A DNA stretch of 64,000 bases from Agelas oroides (Eukaryota; Porifera; Demospongiae; Agelasida; Agelasidae): NCBI GenBank assembly GCA_949130485.1, contig OX422200.1, forward strand, positions 4,448,274 through 4,512,273, in the 5' to 3' direction. Made by a program: the position numbers and the translations under genes. The notes beneath the pieces were generated by a model that was given only the letters and a program-made list of their open reading frames with translations, had not been told where the DNA came from and did no database searches. Of the stretch, positions 26,212 through 36,001 are shown piece by piece (the stretch's first letter is position 1; every line of letters begins with the position of its first letter).

Positions 26212-29068
26212 CTGGGAGGTCCGACACGCTTACGGACGTGCACGGAACTCCGTATCACGTATGGTAAGTGAACATTGAAAGATCAACGTGGCGACCGCTC
26301 TCGAAGTCCGTTTTTGTACCTGTCCTGTCGCGCGAACTAGAGCCTGTAGGAGCACCATACTCGGTTCGTGGATAGTTGAGACGGGACCCTACTGCTCCTG
26401 TGTGTCTGTGGCGCTGGGGTGTCAAAACTTCGCAGCAAGAGCGAGCTAAACCCGGAGCATGATTAACATGACCTGGAGGACGGTACTTTGAGCAGGTTGT
26501 AGCTCCATAACGCAACGGGCTATGAAGCTCGGACTTGCGTTGGATGAAAGTAGAAAGACGGCTGATTCCAGTGATGTGCATTTGTGGGAGTGACACCCCC
26601 CTTGGTTTTGGAGCTACAGAGCTTTGAAAGTTGACAAGATTTGGGAAATGTGAAAATAGGCTACAATTTAGGAGCTCATATCTTCCGGTCAGATCATGCT
26701 ATTGTGACAGAACTTTGCGCCAAAATGAACCTCTTTCCATGTACTTTGTGATGATCTTCACATTGTTGGTGACACCCCATGCAGATTTGGAGTAATCCAG
26801 CTTTGTAGTTGACTATAATTGTGAAAGACGTAAATCTGGGTAAAATTCAATCACCCGTATCTCCTCAACAAAGAAGGCAGTGGTGATGGGACTCACACCA
26901 AAACGATGCACATTCTATATACTTTCCGATGATATCCATATTACTGGTGACATCCCATACAAATTTGGAGCTATACACCTTTGAAGTCAAGTATGTTTGT
27001 GCAATATCAAAATATGGGTAAAATAGGAGCCCATATCTTCCGGTCAGATTATGCTGTTGTGACAGAACTTGCACCAAAATGGAGCCCTTTCCATGTACTT
27101 TGTGATGATCTCCACATTGTTGGTGACACCCCATACAGATTTGGAGTAATCCAGCTTTGAAGTTGACTATAATTATGAAAGACGTAAATCTTGGTAAAGT
27201 TCAATCACCCGTATCTCCTCAACGAAGAAGACAGTGGTGATGGGACTCGCACCAAAATGATGCACATTCTGTCCACTTTCTGATGATATCCATATTGTTG
27301 GTGACATCCCATGAAGGTTTAGAGCTTTGAGGTCAACCATGTTAGTGCAATATCTGAATATGGGTAAAATTTAACCACCTGACAGCGTATATCTTCTGAA
27401 AAAGAGACAGAAGTGATGGGACTCATCCAAATGGTTAAGAAGTCAACTATGTTTGTGAAACTTTGAACTACCTATATCTTGGAGGACAGTGCATCCATGA
27501 TGCATGAGACTTAACCTATTGACAAATTTCTATGTGGTATTCACCAGAATGCATATGTGTGAACTTACTGCAATCAAACCATGCTCTAATGAAATGACCT
27601 CATTTGTATGCCTTCCCTGCCTCCAGCATATTACCTCAGGCCTTCTCCATTTGTTTGCACACTGGAAATGACTAACGTTTGATGTGGAGAAGGCATGAGA
27701 ATGAGAGGCTATTAATAGAGTGTCGCAATCAAAGTGGAATCATCGATATCAGAAAGTATAATTATATTATCACTTTCACATTGTTGGCTATATTTGAGTA
27801 GATAATAATTTCAAAATCAAAGCTCCAAAAATAAACCACTATGGGTAGGTATCACCAGAAAGTACATAGAATGTGCATCTTTGGTGTAAGTCCCATCACT
27901 GTCCTCAGAGATGTTTATTTTTATCAGCAAAATTTCACATGACTTCTGAGCAAGATGGATTCAAATTTCTATGATATGTCACAGAAAATCTGAATATCAT
28001 CAGAAAGTATACAGAATGTGCTTCTGGTGGGGGTCCCATCACCACTGTCTTCTTCGTTGAGGAGATACGGGTGATTGAACTTTACCAAGATTTACGTCTT
28101 TCATAATTATAGTCAACTTCAAAGCTGGATTACTCCAAATCTGTATGGGGTGTCACCAACAATGTGGAGATCATCACAAAGTACATGGAAAGGGCTCCAT
28201 TTTGGTGCAAGTTCTGTCACAACAGCATAATCTGACCGGAAGATATGGGCTCCTATACTTTACCCATATTTTGATATTGCACAAACATACTTGACTTCAA
28301 AGGTGTATAGCTCCAAATTTGTATGGGATGTCACCAGTAATATGGATATCATTGGAAAGTATATAGAATGTGCATCGTTTTGGTGTGAGTCCCATCACCA
28401 CTGCCTTCTTTGTTGAGGAGATACAGGTGATTGAATTTTACCCAGATTTACGTCTTTCACAATTATAGTCAACTACAAAGCTGGATTACCCCAAATCTGC
28501 ATGGGGTGTCACCAACAATGTGAAGATCATCACAAAGTACATGGAAAGGGCTTCATTTTGGTGTAAGTTCTGTCACGATAGCATAATCTGACCGGAAGAT
28601 ATGAGCTCCTAAATTGGAGCCTATTTTTACATTTCCCAAATCTTGTCAACTTTCAAAGCTCTGTAGCTCCAAAACCAAGGGGGGTGTCACCCCAACAAAT
28701 GCACATCACTGGAATCAGCCGTCTTTCTACTTTCATCCAACGCAAGTCCGAGCTTCATAGCCCGTTGCGTTATGGAGCTACAACTGCTCAAAGTACTGTC
28801 CTCCAGGTCATGTTAATCACGCTCCGGGTTTAGCTCGCTCTTGCTGCGAAGTTTTGACACCCCAGCGCCACAGACACACAGGAGCAGTAGGGTCCCGTCT
28901 CAACTATCCGCGAACCGAGTATGGTGCTCCTACAGGCTCTAGTTCGCGCGACAGGACAGGTGCAAAAACGGACTTCGAGAGCGGTCGCCACGTTGATCTT
29001 TCAATGTTCACTTACCATACGTGATACGGAGTTCCGTGCACGTCCGTAAGCGTGTCGGACCTCCTCTG
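26212..29068. mobile_element. foldback element E2 (2.86-kb palindrome)
   Basis: A second copy of E1, separated from it by 2 bp. The ends read CTGGGAGGTCCGACACGC and its near reverse complement GCGTGTCGGACCTCCTCTG. Left-arm subrepeats begin at 26768, 26946, 27122 and 27300 (spacing 176-178 bp). The centre (about 27480-27840) matches the centre of E1, including the TGCCTTCCCTGCCTCCAGCA block. No transposase-like frame was found. Confidence 0.8.
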
Positions 29069-29084
29069 CTTTCCTCGTGAGTCT

Positions 29085-29408
29085 TAGTCTCGTGCCCAGA
29101 CCCCGCCCTCTCACGAGGAAAAAAGGGTCTGGTGACCTTCAGCCGATTCCTCGGCTTCATTAAGTTGATTGCTTTTCGACGGGGAATTTTGCTCGTGCCA
29201 ATCACGTTGCAGAAAACACAATCTGTGGTTGCAACACCGGAAATTCTTGACTACTTCAACACGATGACACAGCACTTTTTTGGCGCGTAAATTAGTTATC
29301 AGTTCGCAACTATGCATACAATAAGCTATGAATTTTTAATGAAGCCCGAGGAATCAGCCGGATGTCACCAGACCCTCTCCTCGCGGGTGGGGTCTGGGCA
29401 CGAGACTA
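29085..29408. mobile_element. 324-bp MITE, TAGTCTCG family
   Basis: Terminal inverted repeats of about 80 bp begin TAGTCTCGTGCCCAGACCC and include GGGTCTGGTGAC and GATTCCTCGGCTTCAT with inverted partners. They are bracketed by a perfect 9-bp duplication CGTGAGTCT (29076-29084 and 29409-29417). No coding capacity. Confidence 0.9.
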
Positions 29409-29439
29409 CGTGAGTCTGGGCACGAGCCTACGATCTGGT

Positions 29440-29627
29440 TGAGCTTAGTCTCGTGCCCAGCCCACGCGTGGTCTGGGGCCCCTAAATTAACCCCAACCCA
29501 ACCAATCAGATTAGAGCTTTGAAACGCATTTCGGTACTGTGTACGACAGCCTCGTTCCCAGGCCTTCTGCGTTAACTATGATTGAAGGCCTGGGAACGAG
29601 GCTAGTGTACAAGGAGCTGGATTTCCA
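29440..29627 (-). repeat. left part of dispersed repeat split by insertions
   Basis: Matches 61485-61651: TAGTCTCGTGCCCAGCCC, then AATTAACCC(C/T)AACCCAACC, GATTAGAGCTTTGAAACGC and GTGTACGA. The remainder of this repeat resumes at 36002, after the MITE and transposon inserted into it. Confidence 0.7.
29548..29604. mobile_element. 57-bp palindromic MITE, AGCCTCG family
   Basis: AGCCTCGTTCCCAGGCCTTC pairs with GAAGGCCTGGGAACGAGGCT. Flanks GTGTACGAC and GTGTACAAG are an aged 9-bp target duplication (7 of 9). The homologous repeat at 61589-61627 has a shorter version at the same site, so this insertion is ancestral to both copies. Confidence 0.75.
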
Positions 29628-29645
29628 TAGTCTCGTGCCCAGACT

Positions 29646-29860
29646 TATGGTGGCCCAGTAGTGCACTCCGACGTGGGGTCCGCAGCGGGACCGCCCATAT
29701 TCCGCAGTGTATCCGCAATGTTTCCGCTGTCTTTCCGCACCGTTTCCGCAGCGTCTCCGCAGTGTTCCCGCAGTCTCTCCGCACAGTTTCCGCGCTATTT
29801 CCGTAGGCTTTCCGCGCTTATCCCGCAGTCTTTCCGCACTGTCTGATATGCAATATATGG
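29646..29860. repeat. left terminal inverted repeat with iterated CCGCA motifs
   Basis: After the 30-bp tip come more than ten imperfect iterations of a ~12-15 bp motif (CCGCAGTnTTTCCGCA-like). The right repeat (34826-35017) is the inverted counterpart and keeps blocks such as CCGCAGTCTCTCCGCACAGT. Iterated motifs of this kind are plausible transposase-binding or promoter sites (inference). Confidence 0.8.
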
Positions 29861-29919
29861 CTATACCGCAGGGTGCTCCTCCTGTTAGTTTAATTGAGCA
29901 CTGTCGTTCGATTAACAAA

Positions 29920-32649
29920 ATGGCCGAGCTGCAGTTGGAGGACTGCTCACAAACTACTTCAGTCCCCAGCAAGGAATTATACGTCGGTGCTGAACCACAG
30001 GCTCCCCTGCAGAAAGTGTTTAAGGAAAAGCAGTAAGCCTATGCAAATGCAAAAAATATATATACTAAACGTCGTTATGACCGTATATGTGTTGCATGCA
30101 GGGCTCTCAGTGAGTTGACTAAGGATGATATTGGGAACTGATAGTTTAACTGTGTAATATTAGATGGGTACATACCATGTATTAGCGACATGTATGCTAT
30201 TGTATGTATCCCTGACATGTAATCTCATGCAGAATTATTATACACAAAAAAAAAACTAGCTAAACTCTCAGTCTGCCTTTTTCCAGGATATCTCAACTGG
30301 GAAGGGTGAAGTTTTAAGCTTGCATGTTTTTTATTGAGCACAAGGGTATGCCAATTACATGCATGGTCGCTAAAAAGAATGTAATAGCTAAATCATGATC
30401 ACATGAAATGCATGTATATATAGATCCCCTCATGGAGGCACATGGATTTTATTAATGGTCCACCAAAGAAAAGAGGTAATAATTTGAATGCCTGGGATGG
30501 TGCTTGCCATTTTAATCTCGTCAACTTACAGCAAATCTGGTTTACCAGTACACAACTGCATTGCTGACCTCTGAGCAAGAGTTTATAGCACAGGAAATCG
30601 TGAAAGTCTTCTGTAAAGTTGACATGAAGGTTAGGTGATACTGTGTGCAAAATCTGTGCTAGGTCTGGAGTATGGGTTTTCATGGCAATAGTCCAGATTA
30701 ATATTGCATTTGAAATATTCACATGCACCTGCAGCTACAGCTAATAATATAGCAAAGTGATAATAGTGCATGGACTACTATCACTTTGCTGAGTGCTAGA
30801 ACATTCATATGATCATGTATTGCAGGAATTCACCTGCTCGCTCAGCAGAGGAAGTTGGGCTACAAAAGCCAGATGATGACCACTTTTTGGGTTTGTTTCG
30901 GCCGGTTGTTGGTTCTGTTATTTCCGACAAGGACCTTACTATCATTGGCCTGGTGAAGCCATGGACGCTTGGTAACTACATTACCAAGCTCCACAGAAGT
31001 CCCAGTGATATTCGGTTTGGAGTATATAGGGGTTGTGGATCGCCAAACAGCGAGTTCCTTTCTGCAGGTTTGGATAATTTCATACTGGTAGACTATAGCA
31101 ATGTGTTAATTGATACCAATATGGTATAGGATGTCCAAAGCAATAAGCGTTGCAAGATATCAGAAGTCACTGGTGGAGACGAGCTACAAGGTAAGTTGGA
31201 TATTATACCTTGAGACTTCCTTGTATATACTCGGTGTCTTAACTGCAAGTGTATAATCATCCCAGTTTGGTATGCTCCTACCCATGAGGATGGGTTTGCC
31301 ACTGAATATTCACGCTCACTGGTGTGGCTTCAGCTGAGTACAATGGATGGTTCAGATAACCAGATGGATCATGATGAGGCATTTCTCCCAGAGAGCCATG
31401 GTTATGCTGTTGTCAGGATTGAGAACAAAAGTGCTGATGGTACTTGATATTGTGGTTATTTATGAATCACTAATTTAAGTGTTGGCATTATAATATAGGG
31501 GCAGTGTCTCCTCTTTTGGAGCCAGAGTTTGACAATCCCACAAATCTGAAAGTTCACAAGTGTGGAGAAGGTATACATATAGCAGTATTACTGCCACACC
31601 TTTGTGTAATTTACTACAATTCATAAAGGTACCGTCATCCAAACCTCTTGGAGCTTATGGGCTACTGTCACACTCAACAATGACGGCACTTGTGTATGAA
31701 TTTATGCCTAGAGGAAGCCTCTACCGTAGCTTGCACACAGTAAGTTGCTTAAAGTTACTCTTGTAACACTGATGTAGTTTTAATATGATACTGTTCATTA
31801 TTAGACAAGTGAGGTGTTGACATGGGAGAAACGAGCAGGCATCATGAAGGATACTTGCCGTGGACTTGCATACTTGCACGCAGGCAATCCACCATTAATC
31901 CACTAGGATATAAAATCGTAAGAATTAGTTATGCAGTGAAAAAAAAGACATGCATTTTGCAAATAATTTTGATTCACTATAGCCTCAACATCCTGATCAG
32001 TCGCTCATCTAAACTGGGAGACTTTGGTTTTGCTTTGGAAATGCCAAAGCATCAGGCTGGGCGCACCCTAGTCACTGCACCCCTCATTGCCCGCACTGAT
32101 GGTTACTGCCCACCAGAGTTGCTTCATGGAAAGATCTCACCAAAGAGTGATGTGTTTAGCTATGGCGTTGTACGTTATATTAATATAGTATTGTTGATGA
32201 ACCATGATTGTGTCATATAGAACTTTATTGTACACAGGTTGTGCTGGAAACCTATACTGGTATGAAAGCTTTTGAGAAGACTAGAACTGATCCAGATCTG
32301 GTAATAGCATGCTATTTTTTGTACACTAATTGACAAACATATTACTCATGATTGTGTATACTGTCTCACCTATGCACAGGCAATGTATCTGGAAGATGAA
32401 AGAAAAGAGTATGCTTCGTTCGTGAGGACTGCAGACCCCAAACCAGGGATATTAAAAGACAGAATTCTGCACACCCTTTTCCACAGGATCGTCACCAGAT
32501 GTTTACAAATGAGGCACAGTACCCGCCCAACATCAAAGGAGGTACATACTACTTTGTTTCCCAGTTCTGACTACCTGTTATAACTCGCTAATCTCTTCCT
32601 GCAGATAATGGACTTGTGGGGGGAATATGATGACTATGATGCTTCTTGA
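29920..32649 (+). pseudogene. IRAK/Pelle-like kinase gene inside transposon, disabled
   Basis: Exons: 29920-30032, 30826-31087, 31130-31190, 31266-31439, 31499-31570, about 31629-31739, 31805-31917, 31983-32169, 32238-32300, 32380-32541, 32605-32649. The first five exons (about 227 codons) are in phase and have no motif I recognise. They lead to KVHKCGEG, the start of a kinase glycine loop. The rest of the N-lobe, including the VAIK lysine, is absent. The kinase resumes at YRHPNLLELMGYC, then LVYEFMPRGSLYRSL, CRGLAYLH, LGDFGFALEMP, TDGYCPPELLHGKISPKSDV and GVVLETYTG. A one-base frameshift lies between 31631 and 31680, and the HRD arginine is a TAG stop (31904-31906). The activation segment and C-lobe resemble IRAK kinases. 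As written it cannot make an active kinase. Confidence 0.75.
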
Positions 32650-32802
32650 GGTTACAGCCTAGTTCTATACCTGTCGTACTTCAATAACTTCACATCTTAT
32701 ATACATCATCATGTATCAGTATTCTTGAACACTTATGTACTCCTTGTCATGATGACCATGTTTGAGTCCACAATTATCATGAAAACCGAGATGAAACATT
32801 TT

Positions 32803-34798
32803 CTACTGACAGATCTGTGAGACTAAATGTAGATAAATGTTCCTGCAATTTTCACAAGATATGTCACTTGGTTGCATGCCAAAATCTTCCTGAAGAACAT
32901 CATTGGTTGCTTTTTCAAATTGATGTGAATAAAATGGTGGTGGTGCTTCAGAAAATTCCATCATGGCTTTGACCCACACACCAGGTTGGATACTTTTCAA
33001 ATGGTTGGCAGCTCCTGTACAGCACAGAAGACGTGCTCTAGTTAAAAGGTGCATGCTTACATTGGTGTACAGCAACGTACCTACATGTCCAGGCATAACA
33101 TAAAGATCATTAGGAATGCCTGATGGACAATCGGCTAGTCTATTAGCTCTGATCTTGTGGGTGTTCCAGTACAGAACAAACTCATCTACTTCTTTCTGTA
33201 GCAATGGTGCGAATGTGAACGCCAGACAATTCCTGCAGACAAATCACACTAAATTAATTCACTAGAAAAATCAAATGATAGCCTCATACCTATGTAATTG
33301 GCTGTGAGGATCAGTTGCTGCTAGACCCTATAAGTAATTGGATCAGTCTTGTCACCACTTATGTGCATCAATATGATTACATTCAGTATGTGATAATTAT
33401 GTACTTTGCACAATTCAATCCACCAATCTGTCTTCAGACGACGAAATTGAGACCACCAAGCTTCTATCCTCTGGATGAAAAGATATGCATTCACTTGTTA
33501 CTTATATCAAGTTAACAACTGGGTACTAAACGTACCACGTTATGCTTTGATGGGCCATATATAAAGCTTCTTTCACCCCTTAGGGAATCATCGTGCGCCA
33601 AACAAAAAGCTACTTGGATGCTTGCTAAGTAGCAATTCTCTGTTCCATAATCACTTCGGACAATAGCAGGACATCCTGAAATAAGTTATATAATTATACA
33701 TGAAACTGAATCTAGTCACACTTAAAAATGATGAAACATAGGAATATCTATTACCTGCAACTCTTTCCACATATTCCAGATAATAGCGTGCAACCACTTT
33801 AGGGTTATGGTTTGTGGAGCCGACTTTCATCCAATGTCACTGCATGTGGCCTGCACCAATAATTTTCTTTCCTCACCCATCAATGCATCCATGTATTGTC
33901 AAGCCATATGGAGTGAGTTTATCATAGCCATCCAAGTGCCATATAAAGTTAGGCCCCTACATAATTAATGTCATTTAATTAGAGTTATGAACAATCACAC
34001 ACATTCTTTAACAACCTTATTGAAGTAAATTTTTAGTCTTCCCTTGGCACGCTGTTTCACTCCTTCAGGGTCTTCTTCTCTCAGCATTTCCATTACTGTT
34101 TTCCTATATTAGCGTGCACACATATTACTTGTACCTTGGAGAAGTTAGGTTTCCATGCTGCTACAAACCTTTTGACAGTCACACGGTACCTGTCCCGTAA
34201 AAGCTTCCAAGCTCCACGGTAGCCTCGCAACTTGTCAGATGATTTTACAACATTCTACAAAACAATATTACTATCAATTCACAAGCAATTCTTAGACTTT
34301 CTCAAAGATGTGAAGTGTGATGAGAGACTATTTGGGTGGAACCTGGAAATGAGGTTAATCCTACACACAGAATTGTTGTTGTGACATTTTACTTACTCTG
34401 ATCAGCACACGGAGGTGGTCAGGAGACACGTTCGACTGATTCCTTTCCAAATTCAGACGTCTTAACTGAACGTGTAGCCATCTCAGACTAACCAGAAGAT
34501 ACATGAAGCTTGGCTCATGACTTTACAGTTAGCACATGAGACCACACATCTTACCTTCTTCTAAGACCATGAACTCTCCGTAAGCGCTCCAGAATGAGCT
34601 TATAGGATCTCCATGAAAAGCCAATAATCTGTCAACAACCCTACAGATCACGAAAAACAACCCACATCATTTGTAGCTCCTCATTTCGTGGTCAGGCTCG
34701 CGGGCCAGACTCTCACACATTAGAGTGTAGCCCGCTAGACTAAAATTATAGGCAGTTCACTTCTCACCATCAACCTCTTCTGGGCTAAGCTTGGCCAT
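32803..34798 (-). pseudogene. integrase-core (DDE) transposase gene
   Basis: The likely start is an ATG at 34798 (MAKLSPEEVD). Exons, in order: around 34560-34640 (FSWRSYKLILERLRRVHG), 34398-34490 (RWLHVQLRRLNLERNQSNV), 34170-34255 (LRGYRGAWKLLRDRYRVTVK), 34023-34110 (RKTVMEMLREEDPEGVKQRA), 33870-33957 (GPNFIWHLDGYDKLTPYG, IHGCIDG), 33765-33840 (KVGSTNHNPKVVARYYLEYV), 33540-33677 (RSDYGTENCYLA, SFIYGPSKHN), 33430-33470 (RIEAWWSQFRRLK) and 32803-33204 (FVLYWNTHKIRANR, GIPNDLYVMP). The two DG/SD aspartates and the glutamate of RIEAWW fit an rve-type DDE triad. The frame is broken after IHGCIDG, near 33860-33890. Stop at 32803. Probably the element's own transposase, now decayed. Confidence 0.72.
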
Positions 34799-36001
34799 GC
34801 TTTTCGCGAATGATCACGTGCACTTCAAGTAACAGCGGAAACAGTGCATGCAGTGCGGAAAGACTGCGGGATTAGCGCGGAAAGGCTGCGGAACTGAATA
34901 GCGTGGAAACTGTGCGGAGAGACTGCGGGAACACTGCGGACATAGTGCGGTTATGGCGCGGAACAACTGCGTTTCCGCTACAGACGCGACGTCGGAGTGC
35001 ACTACTGGGCCACCATAGACTAGACCCCACCCGCGAGGGGTCACTCTAAAAGTAGGAACGGGAAATGGGGAAATGAAGAAATGGGGAAATGGAGACGGCA
35101 ACGCACTGTACTACGACACAAGTGGTGAGTTGTAAAACAGGACAGTAGTGAGTGTACATGTTGTGCAAAGTAGCTTAAAGTATTTGCTAGTCGGGGTAGG
35201 CCTATAATTTTGTTCCTTCTCTGATGAGGAAAGCAACTGTATACCATGTTATGTATACTGACTAAGTATATGCACACACTCCAGTTATTTGATCCATGTA
35301 CTGCTAGTGCTGATTATTCTTGTGGAATTGCCTCACTTAGCTATAAAGCTGTTGAATGTTACCTCCTCTACCCAGTGCATGCAATTATAAATCACACATG
35401 CACAGTTATTATATACTCAAACTATGTCTGATCTCCACAGAGCTGGTGTGTGTATAGATTCTGGTGAAGAACGACTGCAAACATGCATTTGTCATATACT
35501 ATAGAATAAATCATGTTTTTGTAAATAATAGTGCTGCATGTATATGAAACAAATACATGTACGTGGCTCCCTAATGAAGCAAGAAACCAAAGAGGACTCA
35601 AAATGATTCTTTGTAGAAAGTTGGAACAAGGTATGAGTAATGACTCACAAATTTAACAAACTTAAAGAAAGCTAACAAGCTGCCAAAAGTGAAGTGCTAG
35701 CTTGCCGACCATGATGCAATATGCAATGCCGTTGCATATGGTATATGTATACATCCCTTTGGTGCAAATTGTAAGGTATAGATGATCTCAATAAATGCTG
35801 GATGGACATTGACTTCAGTTTTGTCACACAATATTTGATGACTGCAGTAACAAAATGTCAGCAGTTTGCTGAGTAAAATGCAATGTGCTTTCTTCCCATT
35901 TCCTCATTTCCTCGTTTCCCATTTCCCATTTCTCATTTCCTCGTTCCTACTTTTAGAGTGACCCACCCGCGAGTGGGGTCTATAGTCTGGGCACGAGACT
36001 A

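Follow-up and report, generated by a model that had tools for sequence, protein, structure and literature searches.

A protein kinase gene convergent with the transposase gene as standard cargo of an IS3EU/GingerRoot-type DNA transposon in the sponge Agelas oroides

We analyzed a 64,000-nucleotide (nt) stretch of the Agelas oroides genome (contig OX422200.1, positions 4,448,274 to 4,512,273; hereafter the window, with positions counted from its first letter). An initial reading made from the letters alone (the sequence-only reading) had proposed that 29646-35017 is a transposon whose terminal inverted repeats enclose a protein kinase gene and a transposase gene running toward each other. We found that this segment is very probably a genuine DNA transposon of the IS3EU/GingerRoot type with two convergent genes, present here as a decayed copy, and comparison with other copies and families in the genome supported the kinase as standard cargo of these elements. 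The features of the window copy, several of which were read with the help of a sibling copy, L049, are as follows.

29646..29842, + strand: left terminal inverted repeat, with the tip TATGGTGGCCCAGTAGTGC and TCCGC repeated mostly at intervals of 11 or 22 nt
29920..32649, + strand: kinase gene, degenerate (tblastn search of the window with the L049 kinase; aligned copies; missing segment read in L049)
30839..31581, + strand: middle kinase exons, N-terminal to the immunoglobulin (Ig)/kinase part, with no Pfam domain (tblastn; Pfam search)
31627..31745, + strand: kinase exon with HPNLLELMGYC, carrying a 1-nt deletion in the window copy (copy alignment, tblastn)
31784..31918, + strand: kinase exon with the catalytic HxD motif (copy alignment)
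31969..32172, + strand: kinase exon that contains DFG and the activation segment and ends in PKSDVFSYGV (copy alignment, tblastn, remnant search)
32238..32631, + strand: exons of the kinase C-lobe (tblastn)
32803..34798, - strand: IS3EU-type DDE transposase gene of 12 exons, PF24764 (hand-modelled; Pfam)
33405..33470, - strand: transposase exon with the catalytic E (RIEAWW) (model and family alignment)
33536..33675, - strand: transposase exon with the second catalytic D (RSDYGTEN) (model and family alignment)
33877..33956, - strand: transposase exon with the first catalytic D (WHLDGYDKL) (model and family alignment)
34555..34628, - strand: second modelled transposase exon (model; remnant search)
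34831..35017, - strand: right terminal inverted repeat, with the tip TATGGTGGCCCAGTAGTGC inverted

The two repeats pair over 122 nt (29646-29767 against 34896-35017, 74% identical) and again over 43 nt (29799-29841 against 34851-34893, 93% identical). The TCCGC motif, spaced mostly by 11 or 22 nt, occurs 11 times in the 197 nt of the left end and 7 times in the 187 nt of the right end, out of 26 and 24 occurrences on the two strands of the whole 64 kb, repeats included. The sequence-only reading had proposed the iterated CCGCA motifs of both ends as possible promoters for the two genes. Exact matching of the 19-nt tip TATGGTGGCCCAGTAGTGC to both strands of the 259-Mb source genome gave 47 plus and 47 minus matches (94 in all), and the reversed-pattern control gave 0 + 0. 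The alignment of the repeats and these tip counts bear out the terminal inverted repeats first proposed for 29646-35017.

Pairing each plus tip with the following minus tip in the loci that we read yielded 29 tip pairs, the window pair included; the other 36 of the 94 matches comprised 3 in pair loci, 11 in L038-L048, 2 in L049/L050, and 20 outside the loci read. Nineteen of the 29 pairs are 0.8–2.7 kb long, and most align mutually over almost their full length. The 6-bp flanks are perfectly identical in 17 of the 29 pairs and equal at five of six positions in 2 more, although two of the 17 exact pairs, L035 and L036, apparently represent one insertion duplicated with its flanks. At these two loci (C19:3987374, 4120813) both flanks are in common, which suggests duplication after insertion, and the identical 12-nt left flank of L027, L028 and L029 (C13:6248239, 6334616, 6435743) likewise suggests segment duplication after insertion.

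The hexamers flanking the window pair, CAGACT and GACTAG, are equal at 1 of 6 positions, and therefore the GACT at both junctions, which had been taken for the target duplication, is not one; with 6-bp duplications in 17 of the 29 pairs, that candidate was ruled out. An empty target was found for the sibling L015, whose flanks joined once correspond to window positions 29342-29395 (93% over 54 nt), with the hexamer present once at this paralogous site. Two further features border the element. A 17-nt motif, AGTCTCGTGCCCAGACT, is found repeatedly around it, also as its complement (window 29085-29645 and 35984-36000), and explains the GACT at the left junction. Another element, 960 bp long and itself bounded by inverted ends (AGACCCCACCCGCGAGGGGTCACTC...), adjoins the right end of the transposon at 35022-35981. 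An Rfam search over 29000-36000 gave no match.

The transposase gene is multi-exon and runs on the minus strand from 34798 to 32803. Its product matches PF24764 with an E-value of 1.5e-24, and PF24764 transposases are present in the window family and at L051 and L052; no integrase zinc-binding domain was among the Pfam matches, in agreement with IS3EU/GingerRoot. The catalytic D, D and E are invariant across all seven aligned transposase families. A PHROGs search with the transposase returned weak matches only, the best being to a transposase family (E 0.0019), and of 37 stretches in viral contigs that fit a search pattern, none was confirmed as a related transposase.

The element reads TATGG..CCATA at its termini, which fits the TA..TA ends of IS3EU/GingerRoot. 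In the accessible portion of PMC10045372, IS3EU families are described as having TA..TA ends and usually 6-bp duplications, and IS3EU and GingerRoot are treated as one lineage. We placed the element in IS3EU/GingerRoot because it combines TA..TA ends, 6-bp duplications and a PF24764 DDE transposase, that is, an integrase-related enzyme as in that lineage; unlike the elements described there, it carries a kinase as second gene, of which that portion makes no mention. A related DDE core is also found in IS481EU and in prokaryotic IS481 and IS3, but the same portion gives duplications of about 4, 15 or 25 bp for IS481EU and describes no kinase in it (PMC10045372).

The kinase gene, also multi-exon, runs on the plus strand from 29920 to about 32649 and converges on the transposase gene, leaving about 155 bp between the two. 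The sequence-only reading had both genes running inward from starts within 30–60 bp of the repeats; the convergent pair is there, but the left repeat ends some 78 nt before the kinase ATG. Both genes are broken in the window copy. The kinase is without the Ig-like and N-lobe exons present in siblings. Its HPNL exon has the 1-nt deletion, and insertions of 113 bp and 4 nt interrupt an early and a middle exon, respectively. Alignment of the window with four siblings showed HQD (CAG) at the HxD site in L042, L046 and L049, and an in-frame TAG in the window and L050. Downstream of the first catalytic exon, the window transposase has lost a splice acceptor and roughly 6 codons.

Sibling copies were sought in the tip loci read, using a protein match at E 1e-3, and in the whole genome by DNA searches with each gene. 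Among the tip loci, kinase or transposase protein matches were confined to that of the window and to L042 and L046, which have a single tip each, and the DNA searches added L049 (C16:3653275-) and L050 (C18:4555463-). The kinase was present in all five copies found with a window-family transposase, which lie on four contigs. Copies sharing these ends and a transposase but never a kinase, which the sequence-only reading had named as an outcome that would count against it, did not turn up. L042:3878-9700 proved to be a scrambled copy of the element, in which several kinase and transposase segments are inverted in place with sharp borders. Fragments 72–100% identical to the window-family kinase also occur without an adjoining transposase match at C2:9972618, C2:12161020, C2:9405286 and C2:11914977, three of which sit 32–38 kb from a transposase match.

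L049 spans 7.7 kb and retains the tip at either end, in each case with one mismatch over 29 nt; we modelled its kinase gene by hand as approximately 23 exons, most with GT/AG borders, though not all borders are certain. Two of its segments are absent from the window copy, the second comprising an Ig-like exon and an N-lobe with a glycine loop and AAIK. The joined kinase protein (895 amino acids) matches PF00069 with an E-value of 3.5e-44, and the nearest PDB structures are a lectin receptor kinase (6cth) and IRAK4. The initial assignment of the two genes as an integrase-core transposase and an IRAK/Pelle-like kinase is supported. The catalytic domain thus resembles those of IRAK, Pelle and receptor-like kinases; the protein differs from them in having HQD for HRD, a weak Ig-like segment and an N-terminal region with no Pfam domain, and in being transposon-borne. 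Ig_2 scored E 0.05 in the joined protein and E 0.0014 with the Ig exon alone, both below the Pfam cut-off, and the part preceding the Ig-like segment, where IRAK proper has a death domain, gave no Pfam domain at cut-off and one weak match in a PDB search (E 0.87).

We then considered the gene-less copies, a set of 37 tip loci (L009-L048 minus L033, L042 and L046) searched at a threshold of E < 0.01. A kinase-exon remnant was detected in 30 of them (e.g., L020:668-713 and L037:647-692), and the 12 copies that we displayed encode the same 10 codons, PKSDVFSYGV, as the end of the kinase exon, differing at third positions. A transposase remnant, located around the second modelled exon in L049, was present in 29 of the 37. 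When L049 was cut into 242 pieces of 47 nt and each was searched on these loci, four pieces matched at least five loci, namely one from the end of a kinase exon, with 30 loci, two from the second transposase exon, with 29 loci each, and one near the right repeat, with 36; none of the 242 reversed pieces did so. Since remnants of both genes persist in gene-less copies, the short copies are internal-deletion products of a two-gene parent.

The window transposase protein has 139 matches in the genome, and the transposases of other families are 46–49% identical to it. Seven other loci were picked by transposase alone (L051, L052, L053, L054, L055, L063 and L064), the last five from among loci for which no kinase was listed, and a convergent kinase was present in five of these (L051, L052, L053, L055 and L063); L055 also has an Ig-like stretch (Ig_3, E 8.8e-5, below cut-off). 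The convergent layout was seen at L056-L059 as well, but these loci were not counted as independent because they had been picked for kinase and transposase matches lying together. In the L051 family, three copies approximately 100% identical over 2.8 kb each carry kinase and transposase, and a fourth (C9:5291008-5292582; 75–85% DNA identity) has parts of both genes, its transposase not being among the listed protein matches. The left end of this family was not located, since near L051:2264 the C1 copy ceases to match those on C15 and C2.

Across the position lists, a listed convergent kinase lay within 3 kb in 12 of 37 intron-rich transposase loci, against 0.05 expected from the density of the 228 listed kinase positions, and adding L053, L055 and L063 brings the count to 15 of 37. 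None of 28 single-exon PF24764 loci had a listed kinase within 3 kb, a figure that is soft because the kinase lists, drawn from three queries, hold the best candidates only. Both sets of loci were our own selection from the match lists. Five of the remaining 22 intron-rich loci were looked at individually (L054, L064, C2:12063525, C21:4522190 and C1:20412121), 17 being known from the position lists only; C2:12063525 is a scrambled copy holding both genes.

These comparisons bear on whether the ends might simply flank an ordinary host kinase gene, an alternative that the sequence-only reading had itself raised and that draws on the missing target duplication of the window copy. Five copies on four contigs with both genes, the remnants in gene-less copies and the repetition of the layout in other families all speak against it; the sibling copies refute it, and we regard a chance neighbourhood as extremely improbable. 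The same evidence, with the kinase in 5/5 copies found of this transposase, upholds the earlier suggestion that the kinase is standard cargo.

The kinases of these elements fall into two groups, one near IRAK and plant receptor kinases (window, 053, 052, 057, 059 and 063) and the other near TAK1 and CTR1 (051, 056 and 055); their Pfam matches are to PF00069/PF07714. In a tree of 17 sequences (nine transposon, 3 host and 5 PDB kinases, with several rows fragmentary and a small outgroup), constrained monophyly of the nine transposon kinases was rejected (approximately unbiased test, AU p 0.0023). A single capture of a host kinase, the other alternative raised at the outset, is therefore not favoured, with the reservation that several of the sequences are fragmentary. 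The pairings 051-056 and 052-057 agree between the kinase and transposase trees. Among the seven transposon kinases readable at the HxD motif (HQD, HQD, HLD, DHD, HLD, HLD and HLD), the Arg is absent from all and the Asp kept in all, compared with HRD in 2/3 host and 5/5 PDB kinases of the same alignment. The Asp of DFG/DMG is kept in 9/9, and the VAIK-type Lys in 5/5 readable kinases.

It could be argued that IS3EU ancestors took up host kinase genes that have no role and are decaying as passive cargo. GingerRoot elements are said to carry gene fragments, the kinases of the window, L050 and L049 are broken, and two kinase stocks imply repeated capture. Nevertheless, it is a kinase, not random genes, that recurs convergently in families whose transposases are 41–51% identical (two closer pairs reaching 58% and 68%), and active-site Asp residues are kept across transposon kinases only 17–61% identical to each other. 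Moreover, among the 142 matches listed, none outside element copies is more than 37% identical to the window-family kinase, bar one 72% fragment. We consider passive cargo unlikely, and that the kinase is a maintained functional partner of the element seems to us probable.

Substitutions between the window and L049 are suggestive on this point. Their introns differ at 13 of 906 sites, and the window family has therefore moved fairly recently. The kinase domain shows 7 synonymous changes in 135 sites and 5 nonsynonymous in 486, a pattern that may reflect constraint on the kinase domain only, there being no such excess in the N-terminal kinase exons (3 synonymous in 180, 10 nonsynonymous in 639) or in the transposase (3 in 194 and 9 in 715).

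Several observations weigh against a kinase that is a regular and maintained part of these elements. The synonymous/nonsynonymous signal just described is weak and does not extend to the transposase or the N-terminal kinase exons. Intact copies, which the sequence-only reading had suggested looking for, were not seen among those found of the window family; L049 has frame changes in both genes and, although a complete element, has no 6-bp duplication. The 2.25 kb examined at L064 contain no kinase, and at L054 the only kinase sequence is a fragment, resembling L059, inside a rearranged transposase end. The kinase fragment at C21:4522190 is in the wrong orientation and not convergent, and the transposase copy at C1:20412121 matches part of the gene only. 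Lastly, the congruence of kinase and transposase distances is a trend only (Mantel r 0.39; 327 of 5040 permutations).

With regard to mechanism, the transposase would cut and paste DNA bearing these ends, the gene-less short copies included, and the kinase would act in trans for the element, which we rate as the most likely step. It may phosphorylate the transposase itself or else some host factor that restrains transposition or what follows from it, with stress or innate signalling, repair and silencing as candidate host processes. It may also need no upstream activation, which would fit the absence of the HRD Arg. As a whole, in-trans phosphorylation of the transposase or of a host factor, without upstream activation, is a possibility that we advance tentatively.

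The kinase might instead act on the host and not on the transposase; being IRAK- or TAK1-like, it could change innate or stress signalling and in this way protect the cell or the element. The two stocks do resemble immune and stress kinases (IRAK4 and receptor-like kinases; TAK1 and CTR1), and in L049 and L055 there are Ig-like segments ahead of the kinase, albeit scoring under the Pfam cut-offs. However, likeness among such kinases is not function, and a Pfam search gave no adaptor domain. The alpha-kinases of rust-fungus IS3EU elements, moreover, are of another class, a point in favour of phosphorylation as such. A purely host-directed role is accordingly one that we find rather doubtful.

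Those rust elements offer the closest parallel. As described in PMC12730594, every TET+ IS3EU family has an alpha-kinase gene running opposite to the transposase gene, with a TET/JBP gene lying between these two, and the elements have TAYGG..CCRTA termini and 6-bp duplications. The Agelas elements agree with them in ends, duplications, transposase type and an opposing kinase gene, but differ in having PF00069/PF07714 kinases (IRAK/RLK-like or TAK1/CTR1-like) in place of the alpha-kinase, and in the window only about 155 bp, rather than a TET/JBP gene, separates the two genes (PMC12730594). In the literature that our searches covered, only that paper describes a kinase gene in IS3EU; the terms kinase gene and IS3EU also occur once each in PMC12116750, on the apple genome. 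An earlier mention in the GingerRoot paper or in Repbase is possible.

In our view, nothing speaks more strongly for kinase activity serving the element than the presence of unrelated classes of kinase in the same place. It is conceivable, though we would put it at somewhat short of an even chance, that there is an IS3EU clade in which a kinase is a required second gene recruited several times, from at least two lineages here in addition to the rust alpha-kinase, so that phosphorylation would be built into the life cycle of these elements and be carried out by kinases independent of upstream activation.

The roles of the accessory genes of cut-and-paste transposons are mostly not known. If the pairing of a transposase with kinases from unrelated stocks is as we propose, it would suggest that transposition is controlled at a phosphorylation step or, alternatively, that a transposon can act on host signalling in this way, and both roles would be testable with the two proteins. 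The elements are also an example of how genes for signalling kinases become dispersed in a genome, and this bears on kinase-family counts.

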